From an uncultured Sulfolobales archaeon (lineage in GTDB: Archaea > Thermoproteota > Thermoprotei_A > Sulfolobales > NBVN01): DNA of 36,685 nucleotides. Position numbers and translations under genes: made by a program. Shown piece after piece: positions 23,261 through 23,845 of the stretch (positions are counted from its first letter, which is position 1; the number at the start of each line of letters is the position of its first letter). The stretch lies in contig CALIBI010000055.1 in assembly GCA_938045815.1 (NCBI GenBank), positions 1 to 36,685 of the forward strand, read 5' to 3'. The notes beneath the pieces are model-generated. The model saw only the letters and a program-made list of their open reading frames with translations, made no database searches and was not told where the DNA came from.

Positions 23261-23320
23261 TTATTCAGTTCGTCGCGAGATCCTCATCACTCAGTCTGGA
23301 GCGGCTACATCATCAATTGA
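23261..23320 (-). ncRNA. C/D-box sRNA (2'-O-methylation guide)
   Basis: On the minus strand a C box TTGATGA (23316-23310), a 15-base guide, D' box CTGA (23294-23291), C' box GTGATGA (23290-23284), a second 15-base guide (23283-23269) and D box CTGA (23268-23265) occur in order. Guide lengths suit archaeal C/D RNAs bound by L7Ae, Nop5 and fibrillarin. The D guide TCTCGCGACG is complementary to CGUCGCGAGA, which I recall from the peptidyl-transferase region of 23S rRNA (near U2593, E. coli numbering). The D' target is not recognised. D' and C' are adjacent with almost no spacer, which is tight. A TATA-like TTAATAA lies about 20 bases upstream. Confidence 0.72.
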
Positions 23321-23365
23321 ATATACGTTACGACCTTATTAACTTAACTCAGCAGCTCAGCTACT

Positions 23366-23845
23366 TTATATGGTTTCAGCGTACTTCCTGGCTTTCCTGT
23401 ATGTTCCTGTGATTCTCTCAGGACATACTTGATTAAGTACGTTCTTCCTCTCCAGGTATGCTAGAGCCAGCAGCACGCCCCACCTGTAATGACTCCTAAC
23501 TCTGATTATTGCTTTCGATGTTTTCTCGCTGAAGTACAGGATTTTAGGGGAGGCTTCTGAGTAGTTCTTCTTGCCGTAAAGTTCTATGAATGCTTCACTG
23601 AGTTGTTCCTGCAGCTCATTAAGGCTTGTGTTCCCCTGAGTAACTAGTCTTACTACCAGATACCTGTTTTTGTGCTTCCTACGTCTCTCAATACTCTTAA
23701 CAACTTGCTTCAAGATTCTTGAGTCTAGACTGATTAACGCGTTCTTGACCTTACGCCTAAGAAGTACTAACTGGTGTAGGGTGACTATAGCGAGAACTAG
23801 AGCTGACGTAGCGATTACGATGAAGAATACCTCAAGTAACTCCAT
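23366..23845 (-). CDS. rnp2: RNase P protein component 2 (Pop5) with N-terminal membrane helix
   Basis: Residues about 55-159 match archaeal Pop5: RYLVVRLVTQGNTSLNELQEQLSEAF, KILYFSEKTSKAIIRVRSHYRW and the C-terminal RITGTYRKAR. With Rpp30 it activates the RNase P RNA that trims tRNA 5' ends. Unusually, residues 1-34 form a hydrophobic helix (FFIVIATSALVLAIVTLHQLVLL) closed by RRKVK, like a membrane anchor, before a linker and the core. ATG 23845 overlaps the Rpp30 stop by 14 bases and is preceded by GGGGGG. A TTG at codon 45 could instead start a normal-length Pop5, but no Shine-Dalgarno precedes it. The order L15e, RNA-binding protein, Rpp30, Pop5 is the classic archaeal operon. Confidence 0.85.
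   Translation of the reverse strand: MELLEVFFIVIATSALVLAIVTLHQLVLLRRKVKNALISLDSRILKQVVKSIERRRKHKNRYLVVRLVTQGNTSLNELQEQLSEAFIELYGKKNYSEASPKILYFSEKTSKAIIRVRSHYRWGVLLALAYLERKNVLNQVCPERITGTYRKARKYAETI

Follow-up and report, generated by a model that had tools for sequence, protein, structure and literature searches.

A predicted double-guide C/D-box sRNA of Thermoproteota, adjacent to pop5 and aimed at the peptidyl-transferase region of 23S rRNA

The locus and the anatomy of the sRNA

The window (the whole 36,685-nt stretch of Sulfolobales DNA that was analysed) carries, just downstream of pop5, a 52-nt segment with the boxes and guides of a C/D-box sRNA. The features of the locus are these:

23366..23845, minus strand: pop5, RNase P protein component 2 (Pfam PF01900, E 5.3e-12), the upstream same-strand neighbour, outside the sRNA
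23336..23342, minus strand: TTAATAA, TATA-like, 22-28 nt before the GATGA of the C box
23265..23316, minus strand: predicted C/D-box sRNA core, C to D box, 52 nt (box pattern; model R1)
23310..23316, minus strand: C box, UUGAUGA
23295..23309, minus strand: D' guide, UGUAGCCGCUCCAGA, 15 nt, pairing with the 23S P loop; predicted site G2251 (E. coli numbering)
23291..23294, minus strand: D' box, CUGA, degenerate in many relatives
23284..23290, minus strand: C' box, GUGAUGA, at zero spacing from D'
23269..23283, minus strand: D guide, GGAUCUCGCGACGAA, 15 nt, pairing with 23S at U2460 (helix 89), alternatively at U2593
23265..23268, minus strand: D box, CUGA

A first-pass annotation of this DNA had recognised a C/D-box guide adjoining pop5 and aimed at the peptidyl-transferase region of 23S rRNA; that identification holds. 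The box coordinates bear out the order C, D', C', D with two 15-base guides on the minus strand, and the D'-C' spacing, which had been called nearly zero, is zero. The C and D boxes lie near the ends of the RNA, as in archaeal C/D-box sRNAs generally, with internal D' and C' boxes and guides of suitable length between them; the first base of the C box is U, where the consensus RUGAUGA has a purine. The further suggestion that zero spacing favours a single functional guide finds no support, because both guides are conserved and the consensus of RF01128 (sR43) has the same CUGAGUGAUGA. A C-D'-C'-D pattern designed for this kind of RNA has a single occurrence on the two strands of the window, 300 dinucleotide shuffles contain none, and the sequence-only model R1, built from 65 homologs of which the window sequence is one, matches it at E 3.0e-15. 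In the alignment A1 the TG of C' is invariant, its A nearly so, and D' degenerate in relatives; A1 and R1 were built from sequences fitting a pattern that fixes parts of both guides, so that invariance of the pattern-fixed columns is no evidence. The outer stem of the window copy is not stable (+1.2 kcal/mol); outer flanks folded with their own partner give -2.36 kcal/mol, against -1.42 when partners are swapped between species (lowest of 100 swaps, -1.85).

Two tRNAs are all that Rfam reports for the window at gathering scores. With the cutoff relaxed to E 10, 18 matches are listed between 23200 and 23400, all to C/D families, all on the minus strand and all below gathering scores. The best among those listed are sR5 (RF01304; E 0.0022; 22.1 bits against a gathering score of 40) and snoPyro_CD (RF00095; E 0.0023; 24.7 against 45), which resemble the window sRNA in box layout and length but differ from it in their guides. 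With every Rfam family below its gathering score here, the sRNA is a candidate new Rfam entry. The consensus of snR67 carries GUCGCCCCAA after the C box, as the window sRNA does; its model scores 13.3 bits against a gathering score of 55, is longer (83 positions) and otherwise aligns poorly; the likeness may or may not reflect homology.

Gene order, spread and a promoter-like element

Counted from the pop5 stop codon (23366), the C box begins after 49 nt; the first-pass distance of 45 bases had been taken from an outer limit of the element, and the adjacency stands. The gene before pop5 matches RNase P component 3 of NCBIfam weakly (E 0.004), with no Pfam match and no PDB sequence match, and is probably Rpp30. 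Beyond this putative Rpp30 gene lie an RNA-binding protein (PF01877) and ribosomal L15e; an RsmB/F-type methyltransferase lies on the other side of the locus.

Among 60 genomes from the window's genus, family and order, model R1 at E<=0.001 matches 50 (own counted), many of which are themselves in the model; in a set of 398 sampled evenly across the phylum it matches 218 (own counted). The remaining 180 phylum genomes, complete ones of families f5 and f6 included, have no R1 match at that threshold. BLAST over the set of 60 gives a match at E up to 1 in 46, many by chance, and these yielded 26 intact copies (own included); a weak match in G058, with no intact boxes, was dropped. The BLAST matches and the degenerate pattern described below are the fairer samples, most homologs having been collected by searches with part of the guide sequence prescribed, in species that are not independent. 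A pattern scan of genome contigs returned 73 records, 71 archaeal and 2 bacterial, with titles that include Desulfurococcales, Sulfolobales, Ignisphaera, Metallosphaera (two records) and Thermofilum; the bacterial pair (L230, L233) was dropped against a chance expectation of about one, an estimate made without computation. A search for related loci by way of pop5 yielded no relative. Judged by these matches, the predicted sRNA family is spread through Thermoproteota, with its guide pair traceable across the phylum. It extends to family f15, where R1 matches many genomes: over the compared part of 23S, G+C is 50-54% in five f15 genomes, close to the 54% of E. coli, whereas the window genome has 65%, and the f15 organisms are therefore probably mesophiles, suspected to be ammonia oxidisers.

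Proximity to pop5 recurs across the 71 archaeal records. In 54 of them the fetched stretch contains pop5, and in 49 the sRNA lies at most 400 nt downstream of its stop codon, on the same strand in 39 and on the opposite strand in 10; the others comprise 5 with the sRNA further away and 17 stretches that have no pop5. The C box is overlapped by the end of pop5 in Aramenus (L171) and Metallosphaera javensis (L186), an overlap of a type known for other archaeal C/D genes, according to the part of PMC7994747 available. The relative strand is inverted even within the window's own genus: G000, G002 and G004 have the sRNA on the pop5 strand, G001 and G003 on the other.

Upstream of the sRNA the family shows a sharp A/T peak. 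Measured from the GATG ahead of the D' guide, the A/T fraction in 78 homologs is 0.90 at -32 and 0.91 at -31, and at most 0.77 at every position from -60 to -5 outside -34 to -29; with the GATGA of the C box as anchor the peak is 0.91 at -32. The window's TTAATAA lies a few bases nearer than the family peak, which falls about 29-33 nt before the GATG, or about 30-33 nt before the C-box GATGA (78-79 homologs). Of the same-strand copies, 33 of 42 have five consecutive A/T positions at the peak, as do 10 of 12 on the opposite strand and 17 of the 25 others; three control stretches give 7-11, 1-3 and 2-4, respectively. The element looks like a TATA box of the sRNA's own. Co-transcription with pop5 therefore seems unneeded, and transcription of the sRNA probably starts at a promoter of its own, pop5 being no more than a neighbour.

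Pairing of the two guides with 23S rRNA

In C/D-box RNAs the fifth guide nucleotide upstream of each D box selects the target (N+5): its pairing partner in the rRNA receives the 2'-O-methyl group. For the D' guide, the best match in 23S is the P loop, GCUGGGGCGGC, and the N+5 nucleotide aligns with G2251 of E. coli. This is the clearer of the two guides, with a predicted target where the first-pass annotation had given none. The P-loop run is 9 to 12 pairs long in all 44 species with an identifiable D' guide (it is unrecognisable in G191 and G152). Every one of the 42 23S sequences longer than 2,700 nt retains the P-loop site of the window's D' guide, with a run of no fewer than 9 pairs; of 300 shuffled guides, 1 keeps any site equally and 4 have one that persists in 90% or more of the sequences. 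Within the window genome's own 23S, a run as long as the observed 10 pairs turns up for 57 of 1000 shuffled guides, so the strength of the D' pairing lies in its conservation. A locus of family f31 (G191; L274, about 1450-1560) that lacks a recognisable D' guide keeps the D guide and its fit to U2593.

According to the part of PMC7600485 available, G2251 receives its methyl group from RlmB in E. coli and by way of U31 or snR67 in mammals and yeast; those C/D snoRNAs share the target nucleotide of the D' guide (Gm2619 in yeast, Gm4196 in human), whereas RlmB reaches it as a stand-alone protein enzyme with no guide RNA. In the excerpted text of PMC4644070, guides to archaeal G2251 (their G2520) are predicted in three organisms, among them Methanopyrus kandleri (sR13/sR45). 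These belong to the same class and are predicted to address the same nucleotide; they are likened to the window sRNA by target alone, so that either kinship or convergence may account for them. About 17% of the predicted sites in the same excerpt are common to more than one species, in contrast to a G2251 pairing kept across a phylum. In a survey of seven archaea no methylation site was common to all, and the part of the review PMC7994747 available stresses how fast guides evolve. A P-site nucleotide modified by a protein in bacteria and through a snoRNA in eukaryotes is here the predicted target of a phylum-wide guide pair.

In the literature examined, much of it as excerpts, no direct mapping of Gm2251 in an archaeon was found. 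A 2024 review (PMC11542601, in the part available) equates the mapped Haloarcula Gm1950 with E. coli G2251 in its Table 1 and section 6, in conflict with the numbering of PMC2584109: there, likewise in excerpt, pseudouridine 1956 corresponds to E. coli 1915, so that Gm1950 should lie near E. coli 1909. Open-access papers on Pop5 together with C/D sRNAs contain nothing on this RNA, which may still be published elsewhere, and a search of the open-access literature for U2593 or U2460 returned no paper. Lui et al. (2018) reportedly carried out a comparative study of Pyrobaculum sRNAs.

The D guide is less simple. It has three 10-pair matches in the 23S rRNA of the window species, each with one G:U: at U2460 (-17.9 kcal/mol), at U2593, 133 nt away (-17.5 kcal/mol), and near E. 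coli position 2359 (-18.5 kcal/mol). The first-pass annotation had placed its target near U2593 and given the sequence there as CGUCGCGAGA. The region was right; the exact sequence was not, and because the genome reads CGUCGUGAGA instead, the pairing at U2593 has its one G:U. Carried over to 42 species, the window's own D guide keeps the site in a fraction 1.00 for U2593, 0.98 for U2460 and 0.07 for the match near 2359, which was set aside as unconserved despite being the most stable here. Of 300 D guides that were shuffled, 2 do as well as its best kept site; within the 23S of the window genome itself, 30 of 1000 reach a 10-pair run.

Comparison of each species' own D guide with its own 23S separates the two sites further. 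It covers 46 species, leaving out G026, G035, G045, G135 and G137, for which 23S was present and no sRNA was entered. At least 9 pairs form at U2460 in 38 species and at U2593 in 33; the U2460 duplex is the longer in 31, the U2593 duplex in 5, and 10 are ties. In our reading, U2460 would be the family's main D target, with U2593 additional or lineage-specific; the proposal of U2593 thus survives as one of three matches, tied with U2460 in the window species and the only fit in five others.

It is possible, though we would not bet on it, that the D guide serves both sites, G8 and U10 pairing with either by one wobble, and that some lineages have specialised. G8 with U10 is the majority combination (29 of 46 species), 28 of 46 have at least 9 pairs at both sites, guides with G8 and C10 or with A8 and U10 favour one site, and the target class changes at least 9 times on a quickly made 23S tree with SH-aLRT support only. 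Against selection for two targets, the U2460 and U2593 sites share sequence, so that a double fit needs none, and three species (G059, G007, G010) reach 9 pairs at neither site; a 23S change compensating the A8 and C10 of the G007 guide was looked for and none was found.

That U2593 is the real target, the U2460 match being a by-product of the shared CGUCG core, appears unlikely. The window guide fits 42 of 42 23S sequences at U2593, and five species (G055, G046, G054, G332 and G191), which carry A8, have at least 9 pairs only there. Ten species, however, reach that length only at U2460. Guide A2, present in all 26 BLAST-derived copies (G046 has G), pairs with the U2460 site and not with that of U2593. 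In G239 guide position 3 is A, not G, and the U2460 site has U where the other 45 species have C, while its U2593 site keeps C: by sequence comparison, a compensatory change for U2460, in one species. The guide of G287 carries A3 as well.

Counting G:U, both guides pair with rRNA over about nine or more positions spanning N+5; the complementarity of at least nine bases to rRNA or tRNA that the first-pass annotation required is present in 23S for each. Nine consecutive Watson-Crick pairs are not reached at G2251, U2460 or U2593 in the window species, since each of these three supported pairings holds one G:U; only the unconserved match near 2359 has them. Nine such pairs are a target-calling rule of one paper, relaxed there for some double guides (PMC4644070, in the part available), and not the definition of the C/D-box class.

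Targets elsewhere were rejected. Over the 45 tRNA matches of the window genome the best scores are 8.4 for the D' guide, against 9.4 at the P loop, and 7.6 for the D guide; one tRNA gene has an 8-pair D' match, a length equalled in the reversed-strand control. The 16S gene is absent from the window's assembly, and 16S targets were therefore tested only in relatives; no site stands out throughout those with both a 16S and a scanned guide. The counter-cases are a D match in G018 (11 pairs, two G:U, score 10.0), at a site that scores 8.0 in G027 and 7.5 in G038, and one in G027 of score 9.5. The 16S and 23S of G003 were excluded; both (on contig C28) look bacterial in our judgement, probably through assembly contamination.

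Wobble in the D' pairing and the function of the sRNA

On C/D-box RNAs of this class, L7Ae, Nop5 and fibrillarin assemble on the C/D and C'/D' motifs. The locus is best explained, and probably correctly, as a double-guide sRNA of a Thermoproteota family that directs 2'-O-methylation of 23S at G2251 and at U2460, U2593 or both. Once transcribed, the window sRNA would assemble the same three proteins on its own two motifs; its D' guide would place G2251 of the P loop for methylation and its D guide U2460, at the foot of helix 89, with U2593 addressed in some lineages or additionally.

Over guide positions 3-11 the D' pairing is fully Watson-Crick in none of the 44 species, and in all 44 it contains a G:U, at shifting positions: position 6 in 31, position 7 in 10, positions 6 and 9 in 2, and positions 6 and 10 in 1, with at least 7 changes of state on the 23S tree. 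In G410, outside this set, the wobble lies at position 9 alone (scored by eye). A pattern that leaves three positions free as C or U matches 151 of 398 phylum genomes, and a pattern search for the perfect Watson-Crick D' form matches none of the 398; both patterns fix the box cores and part of the D guide and would thus overlook guides set differently. Perfect D' pairing would be more stable by about 3 kcal/mol, and it is a guess that the wobble avoids over-tight binding. An explicit version can be advanced only tentatively: selection bars the fully Watson-Crick D' form, the G8 and U10 of the D guide address two peptidyl-transferase sites, and the arrangement has been inherited through Thermoproteota, lineages with mesophile-like rRNA included. 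Imperfect D' pairing would then perhaps let the sRNP release a target that is nearly all GC. A more sober alternative account of the D' wobble is shared history with few changes. The recurrent wobble poses a clean, testable question of how tightly a guide may bind its target.

Two whole-sRNA alternatives to methylation guiding fare worse. The sRNA might act mainly as a folding chaperone, tethering the P loop to helix 89 during assembly, with methylation secondary: both targets belong to the peptidyl-transferase region, separated by 209 nt in E. coli numbering, and such a role for guides to distant sites has been proposed (PMC4644070, in the part available). Nothing separates this from ordinary methylation guiding, however, and the D' N+5 falls on a nucleotide that is methylated in the other domains; we consider a chaperone improbable as the main role. 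That the boxes are a non-functional chance run in the pop5 3' region, as might be supposed of an sRNA known here from sequence alone and below every Rfam gathering score, is scarcely credible given an absence of the pattern from 300 shuffles, guides conserved far beyond the family, and a sequence that stays the same when its strand relative to pop5 flips.

Several genomes have a second R1 match. Seven are weak (E 0.006-0.09) and end at model position 45 (G027:C43, G025:C11, G018:C17, G011:C1, G029:C55, G033:C4 and G040:C9), and one, G016:C112, is strong (E 3.0e-11); these are perhaps paralogous or duplicated sRNAs.
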